Assembly (NCBI GenBank): GCA_947475525.1
Contig: CANJMI010000012.1
Coordinates: 62,001-126,000 of the forward strand
Length of the DNA stretch: 64,000 nucleotides
Origin: Polyangiaceae bacterium
GTDB lineage: Bacteria > Myxococcota_A > Polyangia > Polyangiales > Polyangiaceae
Direction of reading: 5' to 3'
The notes beneath the pieces are model-generated. The model saw only the letters and a list, made by a program, of their open reading frames with translations, was not told where the DNA came from and did not search any database. Position numbers and translations under genes: made by a program. Position 1 is the first letter of the stretch, and each line of letters starts with the position of its first letter. This document shows positions 16,344 through 24,229 of this stretch, one piece after another.

Positions 16344-17324
16344 ATGCGGAAAAACCTGGCTGTTACGGGGCTCTCGATAGCTCTGGCTTTGATGTTTGCA
16401 CCTCTCGAGTCGTTCGCCCAGCCAAGGGGACGAGCCGCGGAGCCGAAAGCGGCAGCGGGCGAGGATGTAGCCCCGGAAGAAACCGTCGAAGTTCCCGAAG
16501 GAGGAACGCCGAGCGCCGAAGGCGAACCTGCGGCGGCGGAAGGCGGCGAGGCGGGGAGCCTTGACGAGCTCTGCAAAATCGACCCTGAGAACTGCGTGAA
16601 AGTGGACATGAATGCCGCCTCCAAGCGCGACATCGATGCCGACATGTACGCGGTGCAGCAGATTTGGGCCCTCCGCACGAATCGCTTCGAGATCAACCCG
16701 TACTTCAGCACGACGATGAACGACCAGTTCGTCGCCCACCCTGCTCCCGGCCTCGCACTCAATTACTACCTGATGCACTGGCTCGCCGCGGGCGTGAACG
16801 GCAACGTCTACGCTGGGCTGAACTCTCAGTCGGACTTCAACTTTCAAACGAGCCGCGCGGCCCGAATTGGCCAGCCGATCACCGAGTACCAGTGGAACGT
16901 CAACGCGAACGCGACCATCGTTCCGGCCTACGGTAAGTTCGCGGCGTTGGGGAACTTCATTTTCCACTACGATTTCTACGTTGTTCTCGGTGCCGGTGCG
17001 ATCAGCACGCGCCCGACCGCGGTCGTCGATCCCGACAACCGGACCTTCGCGTATTCGGTGAAACCGACATTCGGTGGCGCGATGGGTATCCGCATCTTCT
17101 TCACGCGCTACCTCGCTGCGATGCTTGAAGTGCGCGACTACATTTTCTGGGAAGACCTCGAAAATCCATCGATCGCATCAGGCCTCAACGGCGTCGGTAA
17201 GCCTCTTGCGCAAGACCCGTCGACCTGGCTCGCGCCGGACTCGAGCTTCACCAACAACGTGCAAGCACAGCTCGGCCTCTCGGTGTTCTTGCCCTTCTCC
17301 TGGTCCTACGAGCAGGCGAAATGA
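16344..17324 (+). CDS. Outer-membrane beta-barrel protein, GltA/NfsA-like
   Basis: A 326-aa protein with a signal peptide (LSIALALMFAPLESFAQ). An acidic Ala/Glu-rich linker (about 30-80) follows, then a barrel domain from about 105 to the end made of alternating strands (for example RFEINPYFSTTMNDQFVAHP and LALNYYLMHWLAAGVNG). It contains a conserved-looking segment RIFFTRYLAAMLEVRDYIF and ends with strand NNVQAQLGLSVFLPFSWSY. This is the myxobacterial outer-membrane barrel type that is found in pairs in the gliding (GltA/GltB) and spore-coat (NfsA/NfsB) systems. A CGGAG ribosome-binding site precedes the ATG. It is directly followed by a second, related barrel. Barrel assignment good; GltA orthology is inference. 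Confidence 0.78.
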   Translation: MRKNLAVTGLSIALALMFAPLESFAQPRGRAAEPKAAAGEDVAPEETVEVPEGGTPSAEGEPAAAEGGEAGSLDELCKIDPENCVKVDMNAASKRDIDADMYAVQQIWALRTNRFEINPYFSTTMNDQFVAHPAPGLALNYYLMHWLAAGVNGNVYAGLNSQSDFNFQTSRAARIGQPITEYQWNVNANATIVPAYGKFAALGNFIFHYDFYVVLGAGAISTRPTAVVDPDNRTFAYSVKPTFGGAMGIRIFFTRYLAAMLEVRDYIFWEDLENPSIASGLNGVGKPLAQDPSTWLAPDSSFTNNVQAQLGLSVFLPFSWSYEQAK

Positions 17325-17335
17325 GGACGGCGACC

Positions 17336-18202
17336 ATGAATACCAAGATTCATTCCTTCGCAGCGCTCGCGGGACTCTTTGCTGGGCTCGCCGTGCTCGT
17401 GGCAGCGCCCGACGCGACGGCACAGGAGGTCCAAATCAGCGGTCCGCTCGCCGGCGCCAAAGCCGTTCGCCGCGTCCGTCTCCATCGCGACGCCCGCTTC
17501 GACATCGCGCCAACGGCCACGTTCACGTTGCTCGACGAGTTTCGCCGCAACATTCTGTTCGGCGCGCGGTTGAACTACCACTTCACGGACTGGTTCGGCG
17601 CAGGGCTATGGGCTGCCGGCGGCATCAGCTACAACACCGGCCTCGGTGATGAGCTGCAAACCAAGGCAGTCGACGGCCGAAACTGCGCGGATAATCCGAA
17701 CACTCTCGCTTGCAAACGTACCGCGGTCAGTCTTTGTCGCGGCGCGGATTGCCTCGGTAAGAGCCAATTGGGGAGCATCGTATGGATGATCGCCCCTCAA
17801 GCGACGTTCGTTCCTTTCCGTGGAAAATTCTCGGTCTTCGGGAAGGCCTTCATGGACGCGGACATCAGCTTGTTCGTAGGTCCTGCGATCGTAGGATTGA
17901 ACGAGCGCGTCGACTGCACCAAGGGAACGTGCGCGACGACCCCGACGAATCCGGACGCCTTCAGCACCGCGGGTCGTGTCGCTCCGACAGCGACTTTCGG
18001 TCTTGGGTTCAACTTTTATCCGACGAATTACGCAGCGTTTGGGGCCGAATTCCGTGCGACACCCCTCGCGTGGAACACCTCGGGATTTGACGTCACGGGC
18101 GACGACGCCGTCGACTCGAACGACCGCAACTTCCACATCAATCCGATGGTTTCGATCTTCGCGAGCGTCCAGCTACCGACCGAGATCCAGGTCGCTGACT
18201 GA
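17336..18202 (+). CDS. Outer-membrane beta-barrel protein, GltB/NfsB-like
   Basis: A 288-aa protein. An ATG at 17321 overlaps the previous stop, but GAGGA at 17323-17327 is ideally placed for the ATG at 17336, which gives a clean signal peptide (FAALAGLFAGLAVLVAAP, ending ATAQ). The mature part is a barrel: RFDIAPTATFTLLDEFRRN and ARLNYHFTDWFGAGLWAAGG start it, and VAPTATFGLGFNFYPTNYAAF and MVSIFASVQLPTEI end it. A Cys-rich loop sits at about 100-120 (NCADNPNTLACKRTAVSLC). It is paired with 16344-17324 and separated by 11 bases. Paired barrels of this type form the outer-membrane part of Glt/Nfs machines. A tandem repeat array starts right at its stop codon. Confidence 0.78.
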   Translation: MNTKIHSFAALAGLFAGLAVLVAAPDATAQEVQISGPLAGAKAVRRVRLHRDARFDIAPTATFTLLDEFRRNILFGARLNYHFTDWFGAGLWAAGGISYNTGLGDELQTKAVDGRNCADNPNTLACKRTAVSLCRGADCLGKSQLGSIVWMIAPQATFVPFRGKFSVFGKAFMDADISLFVGPAIVGLNERVDCTKGTCATTPTNPDAFSTAGRVAPTATFGLGFNFYPTNYAAFGAEFRATPLAWNTSGFDVTGDDAVDSNDRNFHINPMVSIFASVQLPTEIQVAD

Positions 18203-19437: not shown

Positions 19438-21096
19438 ATGATGCGCAAGCTCTTGGCGTTCACGTGTGGCCTGACCATGACGGCCGTGCCCAAGGTCGCG
19501 CGGGCTGTCGACTGGGAGGTCACCGGCGACGTCGCTTCCCAGGGCTACGAGATCGTCAGCCCCTGGGGAGACGTGGTCCTCGGCAGGCGACGGCTCACGA
19601 GCACCCTTGGCCTCGCCTCGTACAACTTGCAAGGGCGCGACACTCTTCCGTTCAAGGCCACGTACTCGGTCCAAGTCCGCATGCGCGTCGACGCCGATTT
19701 CGGCAGAGCGAATGGTGAGACCGCGTACGATCCGGCGAACGCGACTCGGTTCGTCCCCGGTTTGCAGTCGACGCCGATCGACATGATGTACGGTTACGTC
19801 GAGGGGCGGAACCTGCTCGGTGGTGCGCTCGAGTTCAAGGTCGGGCGGCAATACACGACGAACGTCCTCGGCTGGTGGTCGTTCGACGGTGGGATGGTCC
19901 GCGTCACCACGCCATTTTACTTCGCGGTCGAAGCCTTCGGTGGCCTCGAGCAGCGAGGCGGTCTTCCGCTCTCGACGGCGCGCTTCGAATCCCAAGGCGT
20001 GTGGCGCGGTGCGCAAGACGCGGCCTTTGCAGCGGACTCGCAGCGCTACCCGTCGTTCCAAACGGCGGCGCTCGCACCGGCGTTCGGTGCCGCACTCGAG
20101 TCGAGTGGCCCGAACTGGATCAAGAGCCGAATCGACTACCGCCGCGTCTACAACACAGGCGACGCATTCACCGGACAGTTCGCGTTCCCGAACAGCACAG
20201 CGCCAGCCTCGGGAGGCTACGAAAAGGTCTCGGGGCTTCGCGTTTCCTCGGACCGGGTTGGGTTCTCGCTGAGCGCCGCTCTTCCGGACCTGGGCGTCCT
20301 TCGCGGAGGCGTCGTGTACGACCTTTACGTCGCCCAAGTGTCCCGCGCGTTCGCTGGTGTCGATGTCCACGTCGGCAAACGCACGACGGTTGGCCTCGAC
20401 GCGGACTACGTCCTCCCGGTGTTCGACGCGGACTCGATCTTCAATTGGTTCACCCACAGCCCGAGCGCCTCGGCGATGGCGAGGGTTGCAACGCGGCCCA
20501 CCGACACCCTTCAGCTGAGCGCGCAAGCCGGCACGAAGCTGTGGCTGACCGAAGGGAACCCGGCCTCGTGGGCGACGGGACAGTGCGCAGCCGGAGGCTA
20601 TCAGACCTCGGAGCAACTCTCGCTCTGCACGCGCTATGGAGTCGACTCGACCAACTGGTACGCGAGCCCGAACAATTCCCTTTACGACTTCGCGCGCGCG
20701 GACGAAAACCGCATGAATCGTGCGTCAGCTGACCTCGTGGCGAACGCGAACGCGAACTACGCGTGGCTCACCGGCAAAGCGGATGTTCGCACGATGGTTC
20801 AGACGGGATTCGGCGACGATTCGACGAACCGTGGACGGCGCGCCGGAGGGACCGTCAGCGTACAACAGGCGATCGTCCCCGGGCTTTTTTGGCTCGGGGG
20901 GCGCGTCTCCGCTTACGACTGGCATGACCCTCTGCGCCCGGACCGCGACGCGACATCCATCGGGTACGTCGTGGCACCCGAGCTGCAGCCGCTTCAGTTT
21001 GGCAAGATTAGGGTCGAGTGGGAGCATGAGAGCAACCGGCTCGTTGGACAACGGTTTCGAGTACTCGGCTTGATCACGATGAAGGTGGCGCCATGA
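19438..21096 (+). CDS. Putative outer-membrane porin, partner of the 13-heme cytochrome
   Basis: A 552-aa exported protein (MMRKLLAFTCGLTMTAVP, cleavage near VARA-VDWEV). The mature protein is beta-rich with alternating aromatic/polar strands throughout, such as ALEFKVGRQYTTNVLGWWSF, FYFAVEAFGGLEQRGG and KTLWLT-like turns. It ends in a strand-rich segment (GQRFRVLGLITMKVAP). The size would suit a large barrel, but the strand number cannot be determined by eye. Its last 4 bases overlap the start of the multiheme cytochrome (ATGA, 21093-21096), implying translational coupling. By analogy with porin-cytochrome conduits (MtrB/PioB-type), it may sheath the cytochrome across the outer membrane. That function is inference; I recognise no direct MtrB sequence signature. 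Confidence 0.7.
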   Translation: MMRKLLAFTCGLTMTAVPKVARAVDWEVTGDVASQGYEIVSPWGDVVLGRRRLTSTLGLASYNLQGRDTLPFKATYSVQVRMRVDADFGRANGETAYDPANATRFVPGLQSTPIDMMYGYVEGRNLLGGALEFKVGRQYTTNVLGWWSFDGGMVRVTTPFYFAVEAFGGLEQRGGLPLSTARFESQGVWRGAQDAAFAADSQRYPSFQTAALAPAFGAALESSGPNWIKSRIDYRRVYNTGDAFTGQFAFPNSTAPASGGYEKVSGLRVSSDRVGFSLSAALPDLGVLRGGVVYDLYVAQVSRAFAGVDVHVGKRTTVGLDADYVLPVFDADSIFNWFTHSPSASAMARVATRPTDTLQLSAQAGTKLWLTEGNPASWATGQCAAGGYQTSEQLSLCTRYGVDSTNWYASPNNSLYDFARADENRMNRASADLVANANANYAWLTGKADVRTMVQTGFGDDSTNRGRRAGGTVSVQQAIVPGLFWLGGRVSAYDWHDPLRPDRDATSIGYVVAPELQPLQFGKIRVEWEHESNRLVGQRFRVLGLITMKVAP

Positions 21097-22517
21097 ACGC
21101 AAAGCACGGGACCAGGCCAGGATTCGGGACGGGGTGGCTTGCCGTGAGTTGCTTTGCCGCGATCCTCGTCGCCGCAGGCTCAGGCGGATACGCCGCAGCC
21201 CAGACGCCCTCCCCCGCTTCTTCCGCCGTTGTGGCAGCCGCACCGTCGTCTTCGGCGATGGGGGCCTACTCGCCCGAGGCTCATTCACCCGCTGAGGAGG
21301 AGGAGGACCACTCCCACGGCCTCGAGGCCATTCATGGAGGAGCGATGGTACCGCTCGAATGGATGCCACCCGGCACGAGCGCGAGCCCGCTACCGAGCGA
21401 TCGCATTTTCCCGCCGCAGCAACTGACGATTCGCTTCAATCACAAGAAGCACGTCAAGGAGCTCGAGCAAACGTGCAAGGTTTGCCACGCCGCTGCTTAC
21501 GAATCGAAGCGCGCAAGCGACTCGCTTCTGCCGAATCCGGCAAAGACCTGCGACAATTGCCACGAAGCCGACCACTCGAACCTGGCAAAGGTGACGACGA
21601 CCGGCGAGCCCACCGGCGCGTGCACGTTCTGCCATCTCGGCGAAAAAGCTGGCGAAAACGGCAAGGTCGCCAAGCTCGTGCTGCCAGAGCCCAATTTGCG
21701 CATGAACCACGCCGCGCACGTTCGCAGGAACATCAATTGCGCGCAGTGCCACGGAGCCATCGACCAACTGGAGCTCGCGACTCGTGAGCAGCTTCCACGT
21801 ATGGCAGGCTGCTTCCAGTGCCACGGGAAGAGCGGGCCGGCGGAAGGAGAAGCGCGTGGAGCCTGCGTGAACTGCCACCTCACGGAACCGAGCGGTCGCA
21901 TGCTCACGACGTTCTCGACAGGCGAGCTTAAGCCCCCCGCGTGGCTTCACGGTGCCGGTCACACCGCGGATTGGATCGAACGCCACAAGACCGTCGCGGG
22001 TGCCAACAGCGAGCTTTGCGGAAGTTGCCACTCGAACAATTTCTGCACCGACTGCCACGACGGCAAAGTGCGCCAGCGCGACGTGCATCCGAACGACTGG
22101 ATCTCGATGCACCCTCAGGCGGCCCGGCAGGACAACCCCCGCTGCGCGAGCTGCCACCAACAAGCGAGCTTCTGCGCCGATTGCCACCGCCGTGTCGGGG
22201 TCGCGCGCGACAGTGCGAGCGAGAGCCGAATGGCCGGAAGGCGGTTTCATCCTTCGCCAGAAGTGTGGACCCAAGCGCCGCGCAGCCCGATGCATCATTC
22301 CTGGGAGGCGGAACGCAACATCAACGCCTGCGCCTCGTGCCACAGCGAGCGGGACTGCGCGACGTGTCACGCGACCAAGGGCGTGCGTGGTGGCGGCGGC
22401 GTCAATCCCCATAGCCCCTCGTTCGTGGGTGAGTGCCGCGTCGCGCTCCAGCGAAATCCCCGCCCCTGCTTGGTGTGCCACGCGGGCGATGACTTTCGTC
22501 TCGGAGCATGCCGATGA
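21093..22517 (+). CDS. 13-heme c-type cytochrome, exported
   Basis: A 474-aa protein with a signal peptide (WLAVSCFAAILVAAGSGGYA). Thirteen CXXCH heme-binding motifs are present, in order: CKVCH, CDNCH, CTFCH, CAQCH, CFQCH, CVNCH, CGSCH, CTDCH, CASCH, CADCH, CASCH, CATCH, CLVCH. There are many additional histidines (for example FNHKKH and MNHAAH, c7/c3-type ligand patterns). Heme would be attached covalently in the periplasm. An acidic His-containing stretch (EEEEDHSHG) follows the signal. The close overlap with the porin-like gene suggests they form a unit that moves electrons through the outer membrane. Family assignment is certain by motif count; the physiological partner and direction of electron flow are unknown. 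Confidence 0.93.
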   Translation: MNAKHGTRPGFGTGWLAVSCFAAILVAAGSGGYAAAQTPSPASSAVVAAAPSSSAMGAYSPEAHSPAEEEEDHSHGLEAIHGGAMVPLEWMPPGTSASPLPSDRIFPPQQLTIRFNHKKHVKELEQTCKVCHAAAYESKRASDSLLPNPAKTCDNCHEADHSNLAKVTTTGEPTGACTFCHLGEKAGENGKVAKLVLPEPNLRMNHAAHVRRNINCAQCHGAIDQLELATREQLPRMAGCFQCHGKSGPAEGEARGACVNCHLTEPSGRMLTTFSTGELKPPAWLHGAGHTADWIERHKTVAGANSELCGSCHSNNFCTDCHDGKVRQRDVHPNDWISMHPQAARQDNPRCASCHQQASFCADCHRRVGVARDSASESRMAGRRFHPSPEVWTQAPRSPMHHSWEAERNINACASCHSERDCATCHATKGVRGGGGVNPHSPSFVGECRVALQRNPRPCLVCHAGDDFRLGACR

Positions 22518-22634: not shown

Positions 22635-22889
22635 GTGAAAGAACTCATCCGTTATTTGATCGAGAACCTACAGCTGGATTTCCAGGGCGATGTGACGCTG
22701 GAGACCGTTCGTGGATTTCTGCGCGAGGACGACAGCCGGGAATCCCGCAAGCTTCTCGCTCGGTTGATCGAGGAAGAGGGGGTCGATTCGATGTTGATCA
22801 CCCTTGCAGACTGCCTGCGCGAGTACGTCCGCGAAGGCATCAACGAAGACACCGTCAGCGACCAGTTGGCTATTTACGCGGATTCCTGA
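22635..22889 (+). CDS. Small helical protein, unknown
   Basis: An 84-aa acidic protein starting at GTG 22635, 9 bases after an excellent GGAGGG site (22620-22625). It is predicted to be all helical (KELIRYLIENLQLDFQGD, then REDDSRESRKLLARLIEEEG), without cysteines or membrane segments. A longer frame on the same strand (from 22508) overlaps it, but that extension has no signal peptide, whereas the downstream lipoprotein start at 22907 does. So this small gene is the better reading of 22635-22889. It lies 117 bases after the cytochrome; 22518-22634 contains nothing else apparent. Function not recognised. Confidence 0.6.
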   Translation: MKELIRYLIENLQLDFQGDVTLETVRGFLREDDSRESRKLLARLIEEEGVDSMLITLADCLREYVREGINEDTVSDQLAIYADS

Positions 22890-22906: not shown

Positions 22907-24229
22907 ATGATGGGCCTTCGTTCAACTCGAGGCCCTCATTCGCTGGCTTCCGTCGTTCATCATAGAGCGCTATCTGGCGTGTTGCTTCTCGCTGCCGCCG
23001 GGCTCCTGGCGTGTGACGTGCAGAGTCCGCCGGAAAACGCGGCCTCTCGTTCGTTCGACCGCCCGCTTCTTCAAGTTGGGAATGCGCTCGCTTCGAGCGG
23101 GTACGATGCGCGGATACCCGTCCGCGTAGCGCTTTCGGAGACGGCCGCGACCGACGGGGTGGAGACGTCGTCATCGTTCGAGTTGCTCTTCGACCGATTC
23201 GTCTGGCCACGGACCGTCACGCGCCAGGCGGTGTGCCTCCAGGCCGCATCTTTCGAGGTGAAGTCGCTCGAGGAGTGCACGGCCCCGGCTCAGGGGTTGA
23301 CTCAGCCTGAGTACAATCCGGTTCGACGCTCGGTCACGTTTCGCCAGCAGCCAGGCGCGCGCCTCAAGCCTGCCACCGCATACCGACTGACCGTGTTCGC
23401 ATCGGAGTCGCCCGAAACCCCCGGGTTCTTCGCGTTCGATGGGGCGCCACTCGCCCGCATGTACAGTTTCGACTTCAAGACGAAGGCCGATTCAAACGGC
23501 GCGGTGGATGAGCTCCCCCCGTCGGCCGAGCGCTACTGCGCGGCACAGACGTGCGCGAAGGCGTGTGCGGCGGCGCAAAAAAGCTGCAAAACGGACTGCA
23601 AGGCCGCCTGCGCCAGCGATCCCGAGCCGAAAACCTGCGAGGCTACCTGCAATGGGAGCTGCACGGCGTTGGCCACAGCCTGCAAACAACCGTGCGGCTG
23701 CCTCGACGGGGCGACGTGCGTTGAAAACGGCGACCTGATCGGCGAAAAGCCTGCTATTTTTCGGGGCTGTGGCTTCTCGCCTTGCCACTCGCAAGGCTTT
23801 GATGAAGACCCAACGCTCGCCGCTCCACCGCCGCTCGGCCTCAATATGTCGTCGGCCGCAGCGCTCAAGGCCACGGCGTTCGGTGCCACCTCCCACCTGT
23901 CCCAAACGGGCGAAGCTGCCAGCATCGCCGATTTGAGTGGCGATCGATTTGGCCGTGCGATGCCGCTCATCGATCCCTCCAATCCAGGCAACAGCTTCCT
24001 CGTGTACAAGTTGCTGATCAACGCGCGCAATTTCGCGGATGATCAATTGGTTCCCGCGCTAAACGACGACATCATGCGTCTCAGAGCTGGCGCGATTCCG
24101 GGTATGCCCATGCCCGCCGCAACCGGCCCTGACTCCAATCGCCTCGGCAGCGACGGGGCGTCCTCCCAAGCGTCCTTGCAGCTGATCAGCGACTGGATCG
24201 CGGCGGGCGCCGTCCTCTCCTGCGAGTGA
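22907..24229 (+). CDS. Cys-rich lipoprotein with a CX4CH motif
   Basis: A 440-aa lipoprotein; the signal ends LLAAAGLLAC (about residue 36). The start is ATG 22907 (a second ATG lies at 22910). Residues about 40-190 look like a beta-sandwich (Ig-like) domain. A Cys cluster follows near 205-260 (CAAQTCAKACAAAQKSC, CKTDCKAAC, CEATCNGSC). Then comes CGFSPCHSQGF near 283, which resembles the CX4CH motif seen in myxobacterial cytochrome-like lipoproteins but is not a canonical heme motif. The C-terminal part (GRAMPLIDPSNPGNSFLVYK) matches the pattern of such proteins. It could be an outer-surface partner of the cytochrome. The signal and motifs are seen; function is inferred. Confidence 0.72.
   Translation: MMGLRSTRGPHSLASVVHHRALSGVLLLAAAGLLACDVQSPPENAASRSFDRPLLQVGNALASSGYDARIPVRVALSETAATDGVETSSSFELLFDRFVWPRTVTRQAVCLQAASFEVKSLEECTAPAQGLTQPEYNPVRRSVTFRQQPGARLKPATAYRLTVFASESPETPGFFAFDGAPLARMYSFDFKTKADSNGAVDELPPSAERYCAAQTCAKACAAAQKSCKTDCKAACASDPEPKTCEATCNGSCTALATACKQPCGCLDGATCVENGDLIGEKPAIFRGCGFSPCHSQGFDEDPTLAAPPPLGLNMSSAAALKATAFGATSHLSQTGEAASIADLSGDRFGRAMPLIDPSNPGNSFLVYKLLINARNFADDQLVPALNDDIMRLRAGAIPGMPMPAATGPDSNRLGSDGASSQASLQLISDWIAAGAVLSCE

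Follow-up and report, generated by a model that had tools for sequence, protein, structure and literature searches.

How might electrons cross the outer membrane of a Polyangiaceae bacterium? The question is raised by a stretch of 64,000 nucleotides, called the window below, which lies on contig 12 of a 5.15 Mb genome (completeness, 98.9%) whose relatives are Polyangiales (Myxococcota). A first-pass annotation of this DNA had noted an exported, β-rich protein whose gene overlaps that of an exported multiheme cytochrome, and had proposed the two as a candidate conduit for electrons. The features described below between 19438 and 24229 are all encoded on the forward (+) strand.

Overlapping genes for a putative barrel and a 13-heme cytochrome

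The gene at 19438..21096 encodes a predicted outer-membrane β-barrel protein of 552 amino acids with a signal peptide (approximately residues 1–23), which would form the sheath of the conduit. The gene at 21093..22517 encodes a c-type cytochrome of 474 amino acids, also with a signal peptide and with matches to PF14522 and PF14537, which would serve as the wire. The sequence agreed with the annotation in that the cytochrome has 13 CXXCH motifs (20,000 shuffles of its residues averaged 0.12 and never exceeded 4) and in that its start overlaps the stop of the exported 552-residue protein by ATGA (21093..21096; junction GCCATGAAC, 4 nt). The same −4 overlap was found in most homologues, and is predicted to couple translation of the barrel and the cytochrome. 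Just upstream (16344-18202) are genes for a HEAT-repeat protein and for two small outer-membrane barrels in tandem, both of the OMP_myx_plus type (TIGR04565; the second scored below the cut-off); this order upstream of the pair is common to locus L032 and absent in most relatives.

A predicted 22-strand barrel outside the known families

We modelled the barrel by AlphaFold2 with 32 homologues. The model had 22 long strands with a mean pLDDT of 83.8 and a pTM of 0.78, in keeping with the large barrel that had been expected for 19438-21096. As its first strand directly follows the signal peptide, the model suggests a barrel without a plug. The protein itself has no CXXCH, the heme protein being encoded by a separate gene. 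By idealised backbone radius, the 22-strand barrel (~20 Å) would be narrower than the 26-strand MtrB (~23.5 Å).

Neither Pfam nor NCBIfam had a family for the barrel, be it the window copy or the 32 homologues, and none of these 32 barrels matched the MtrB_PioB profiles PF11854 and TIGR03509; PF11854 was also absent from the host genome. In the PDB sequence search, the barrel profile matched no chain, and the single sequence gave one chance match of 26 residues. The earlier remark that neither protein bears an MtrA/MtrB or PioA/PioB signature was thus upheld by the Pfam, NCBIfam and PDB profile searches. In the structural comparison, MtrB of the Mtr complex gave the longest alignment among the PDB entries listed (404 residues, rmsd 5.1, Z 14.1), while unrelated barrels had Z values of 13–16, ushers and ordinary porins being equal to or above MtrB. 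Since many unrelated barrels fall in this range, the comparison shows only that the protein is a large barrel and does not single out MtrB.

Invariant hemes in the two halves of the cytochrome

Hemes 1–6 of the cytochrome (residues 128–262; 21474..21878) make up a c7/ActA-like half, with PF14522 at residues 204–262 and matches to subunit A of alternative complex III (ACIII). Hemes 7–13, located by mapping the motifs on the alignment, occupy residues 309–463 (22017..22481). The N-terminal half resembles the c7-type proteins GSU1996 (3ov0_A, E 4.5e-22) and ACIII subunit A, and the match of the cytochrome to MtrA (6r2q_A) was weak (E 8e-5). Weak matches to QrcA and HmcA were obtained with NCBIfam, all of whose scores for the cytochrome were far under the cut-offs. 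The structural model of the cytochrome was of modest confidence (pLDDT 71, pTM 0.58).

All 13 CXXCH motifs were invariant in 32 homologues, as were two further Cys residues (448 and 473) that flank the last heme. In addition, 11 extra His residues were conserved in at least 80% of these homologues, which is enough for bis-His ligation of most of the hemes. The in-frame TAG codons of homologous cytochromes were apparent only, and proved to be the normal terminal stop in the loci inspected.

Conservation of the pair across Myxococcota

We surveyed 284 Myxococcota genomes with a barrel profile (E 1e-5) and a cytochrome profile (E 1e-40). The barrel was found in 94 genomes and the cytochrome in 113; as the annotation had anticipated, the pair recurs, with both proteins in 92 of the 284. 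Two genomes had the barrel only and 21 the cytochrome only, the latter mostly from distant families; several of these that we inspected have a weakly scoring barrel or a barrel-sized ORF adjoining the cytochrome gene, and in others the contig ends there. Nor was the cytochrome found loose beside reductases, the finding that would have told against the annotated pair: the barrel gene directly adjoins it at 39 of 40 sampled loci and at 78 of the 80 best-listed loci of named genomes, the exceptions being contig ends. At nearly every Myxococcota locus with a readable flank, the barrel gene precedes the cytochrome gene on the same strand, and 114 of the 117 coupled loci (39 sampled and 78 best-listed) have 13 hemes.

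The named-genome set comprises the best 80 loci listed, nearly all titled myxobacteria or unclassified deltaproteobacteria, and the closest named homologue among them is from a Polyangiaceae MAG (82% identity). Named hosts include Sorangium cellulosum (So ce26, So0157-2 and others), Minicystis rosea, Polyangium fumosum, Byssovorax and Sandaracinus. As judged from profile matches and gene order, the pair is conserved across a myxobacterial class, aerobic soil species such as Sorangium included. A search of plasmids gave no match.

Short and extended forms in divergent relatives

In putatively Bradymonas-like genomes (family f22) and two others, the partner of the barrel is a 7-heme cytochrome, whose alignment with hemes 7–13 is exact. 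At the five 7-heme loci (L222, L231, L233, L240 and L242), the cytochrome is 221–261 amino acids long; such loci are often beside type IV pilin-like genes. As these relatives keep only hemes 7–13 and yet pair with a barrel, it is probably this half that threads the barrel. We infer from the alignment that hemes 7–13 constitute the intrabarrel segment, with hemes 1–6 as a periplasmic extension.

Extended forms were found in the distant families f20 and f24 and, as second copies, in four genomes of Polyangia; in these, the barrel and a 12- or 13-heme cytochrome are accompanied by a large cytochrome with 11 to 29 CXXCH motifs. The five large cytochromes that were scanned all had TIGR01904 (Geobacter CxxxxCH/CXXCH) domains, the cytochromes with such domains having 11 to 18 hemes, and those of L226, L228, L250 and L211 have clear lipoboxes. 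L226 (genome G103), L228 (G116), L249 (G246) and L250 (G193) represent a paralogous cluster in which the 12-heme cytochrome lacks heme 3 and the third gene encodes a TIGR01904-type multiheme lipoprotein with 11–12 CXXCH motifs. In family f20 (L213, L214, L212 and L220), cytochromes of 23–29 CXXCH motifs, whose genes extend past the stretch analysed, are encoded directly upstream of the divergent barrel and 13-heme pair. With a large multiheme cytochrome added beside the barrel and the 12/13-heme cytochrome, these divergent relatives amount to a classical three-part conduit.

Thus, one barrel family presents a series: 7 hemes; 13 hemes with a monoheme lipoprotein (see below); and 12–13 hemes with a large multiheme cytochrome. 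The series gives an indication of the segment of the wire that spans the membrane, and its short 7-heme versions are suited to structural work.

A monoheme lipoprotein that co-occurs with the pair

The first-pass annotation had mentioned, as lying nearby, a Cys-rich lipoprotein with a CX4CH motif (22907-24229). We confirmed a single CX4CH (CGFSPCH, 23768..23788) among 19 Cys residues in the product of this gene (22907..24229; the start is at 22907 or 22910), a monoheme cytochrome c lipoprotein with the lipobox LLAC-D. It matches the Ig-like family Big_5 weakly and has a monoheme cytochrome c domain at its C-terminus, its homologues matching Big_5, PSCyt1 and Cytochrom_C. Of the homologues, 49 have CX4CH as the heme motif and 24 (about a third) have CXXCH. 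A Met-Pro is conserved in the homologues, and this Met is probably the distal ligand of a His/Met heme. Within this one orthologous monoheme family, CX4CH, CXXCH and CX3CH alternate at the same heme site, which makes the family a natural system for testing how heme is attached to non-standard motifs.

Counting only matches that were full-length and strong (E 1e-25 or better), we found the lipoprotein in all 32 conduit-bearing genomes of the window's order and in none of the 11 that lack the conduit; at the class level the numbers were 36/46 and 0/13, respectively. The Fisher P values are optimistic because the genomes are related. The conduit-lacking genomes of the order are spread over three families, so joint loss probably occurred more than once. 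In some genomes the lipoprotein is still present where its gene is distant from the conduit genes. This distribution points to the lipoprotein as a functional partner of the conduit, and it is more relevant than the annotation had assumed.

A conserved gene for an 84-residue protein (22635..22889), situated between the cytochrome and lipoprotein genes and missing from the first-pass annotation, served as a negative control for this co-occurrence. At the class level, it was found in 40 of the 46 genomes with the conduit and in 11 of the 13 without it (P = 1.0). Being equally common where the conduit is lacking, the protein was rejected as a component, and probably stands outside the conduit. 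It is class-wide in Polyangia, with a nearly fixed length and a mean column identity of 74%, and its window copy has no Pfam match.

As for localization, Asp follows the first residue of the mature lipoprotein (position +2) in no fewer than 41 of 52 cases. In E. coli, Asp at +2 is an inner-membrane signal, a rule that is not established for myxobacteria. Inner-membrane lipoproteins of M. xanthus tend toward Lys at +2 (PMC3222651).

A proposed conduit and the direction of electron flow

We propose that the barrel and the cytochrome form a trans-outer-membrane porin-cytochrome conduit that works like the Pcc type, a reading to which we give a probability of about 0.85. The cytochrome would be inserted into the barrel, with its C-terminal seven-heme half held by the plug-less 22-strand structure, and electrons would cross the outer membrane by heme-to-heme hopping through hemes 7–13. 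The N-terminal six-heme, c7-like half would reach into the periplasm and there meet an electron carrier, either soluble or lipid-anchored; the likeliest is the monoheme His/Met cytochrome lipoprotein, whose gene is the second one downstream.

The host genome contains a single COX1 gene, which belongs to a cluster for an aa3-type oxidase. A search of the genome with the named profiles found no NapC/CymA, no NrfD (PF03916) and no MtrB_PioB, and the 13-heme cytochrome is its only Cytochrome_C7 gene. Two small C554-type multiheme proteins are encoded elsewhere in the genome (L255 and L256, on contigs 8 and 5 of G000), one of them fused to a phosphoesterase-like (UshA-like) domain. At the window locus there is no gene for a large surface multiheme cytochrome. 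The lack of CymA/NapC, NrfD, MtrB_PioB and any other C7 gene makes it unlikely that electrons leave by the export chains known from Shewanella and Geobacter. As CymA/NapC and NrfD are missing, an aa3-type oxidase is present and the locus, like those of the Fe(II)-oxidising MtoAB and PioAB types, encodes no large surface cytochrome, we lean slightly to electron uptake towards the oxidase rather than export.

The opposite direction, which competes with the proposal over the flow of electrons and not over the conduit itself, is a serious contender that we place somewhat below even odds. Here, electrons would be exported for the reduction of metals, humics or electrodes, or for redox balancing in oxygen-poor zones. 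Divergent relatives carry, at the same place, the TIGR01904 multiheme cytochromes that are typical of Geobacter-like metal reducers; the points against it, namely the aa3-type oxidase and the missing CymA/NapC, other c7-type gene and surface cytochrome, are all circumstantial. A still more tentative and rather doubtful extension of the uptake reading is that the aerobic fruiting Polyangia (Sorangium, Polyangium, Minicystis and Sandaracinus relatives) possess an ancestral uptake line dedicated to this purpose, running from the barrel, 13-heme wire and monoheme CX4CH lipoprotein to an aerobic oxidase. If this were true, these predators and cellulose degraders could partly live on extracellular reductants, for example Fe(II), humics or neighbouring cells.

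Other explanations dispense with the conduit. The barrel could be an ordinary nutrient porin, and the cytochrome a separate, soluble protein of the periplasm that carries or stores electrons, the two sharing an operon without forming a complex. Many solved nutrient porins do score like MtrB structurally, and the c7 half resembles the dodecaheme periplasmic cytochromes of the GSU1996 type; we nevertheless regard this as improbable because, even between very divergent genomes, the two genes are nearly always adjacent with a start-stop overlap, because the model has 22 rather than 16–18 strands, and because there are homologous pairs with an additional large multiheme cytochrome. That the cytochrome belongs to a quinol-oxidising membrane module of the ACIII, Qrc or Hmc type, the barrel being incidental, is highly improbable: the N-terminal half matches ACIII subunit A and there are the weak QrcA/HmcA hits, but the NCBIfam scores are far below the cut-offs, the genome has no NrfD-family (PF03916) membrane subunit, and no such genes stand beside the pair in any locus inspected.

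Comparison with known systems

The proposed porin-cytochrome conduit can be set beside several known systems. Those of the MtrAB(C)/MtoAB/PioAB type also pair a barrel with a multiheme cytochrome, the Fe(II)-oxidising PioAB and MtoAB being likewise without MtrC, and our barrel model aligns with MtrB over 404 residues. They differ in having 10 hemes and 26–28 strands, as against 13 hemes and 22 predicted strands here, and together with the absence of an MtrB_PioB match this excludes the pair from that group. Cyc2, in which one polypeptide comprises a heme domain and a 16-strand barrel, was rejected because two genes are involved here and the barrel has no CXXCH. The GSU1996-type c7 nanowire cytochromes and ActA of ACIII share the c7-like heme stretches of the N-terminal half; unlike the present cytochrome, they have no barrel partner, and its C-terminal seven hemes fall outside the match.

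Closer are the Geobacter systems OmbB-OmaB-OmcB and ExtABCD, which also consist of a barrel and a periplasmic multiheme cytochrome. OmaB has 8 hemes, ExtA has 12 and ExtB has 18 predicted strands (PMC6148476); the lipoproteins there are surface multiheme proteins, in contrast to the monoheme lipoprotein here, and in Geobacter conduits the surface lipoprotein has often been replaced non-orthologously (PMC6148476). According to Shi et al. 2014 (PMC4245776), Pcc porins have 18–22 predicted strands and are smaller than MtrB; the present barrel, with 22 predicted strands, is within this range, and its gene adjoins that of an exported multiheme cytochrome. The surface multiheme cytochrome usual in Pcc clusters is absent at the window locus and present in the divergent homologues. 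Its gene is also absent from two-gene clusters of Anaeromyxobacter, so it is not a defining requirement of the Pcc type.

The nearest kind, likened by description, is the two-gene Pcc Group IV of Anaeromyxobacter (Shi et al. 2014, PMC4245776): three genomes have pcc clusters of only a porin and a 12–14-heme cytochrome. The phylum, the two-gene arrangement, the heme range and the lack of a surface cytochrome gene are the same as here; the cytochromes differ, at 338–344 amino acids versus 474, and the text consulted describes neither a lipoprotein partner nor hosts of the Sorangium/Polyangium type. Thus, the earlier suggestion of a separate conduit type stands insofar as the pair is not MtrAB/PioAB, and gives way insofar as two-gene clusters of porin and 12–14-heme cytochrome are known in Anaeromyxobacter. 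Extracellular electron transfer in Myxococcota has been discussed for that genus, and in the literature searched, subscription papers aside, we found no conduit described in Sorangium, in Polyangiales or in any myxobacterium outside Anaeromyxobacter. What is new here is the lineage, the fixed number of 13 hemes, the probable partnership with a monoheme lipoprotein and the existence of short forms with 7 hemes; with the heme count fixed in cultured aerobic genera, the question is directly testable in available strains.
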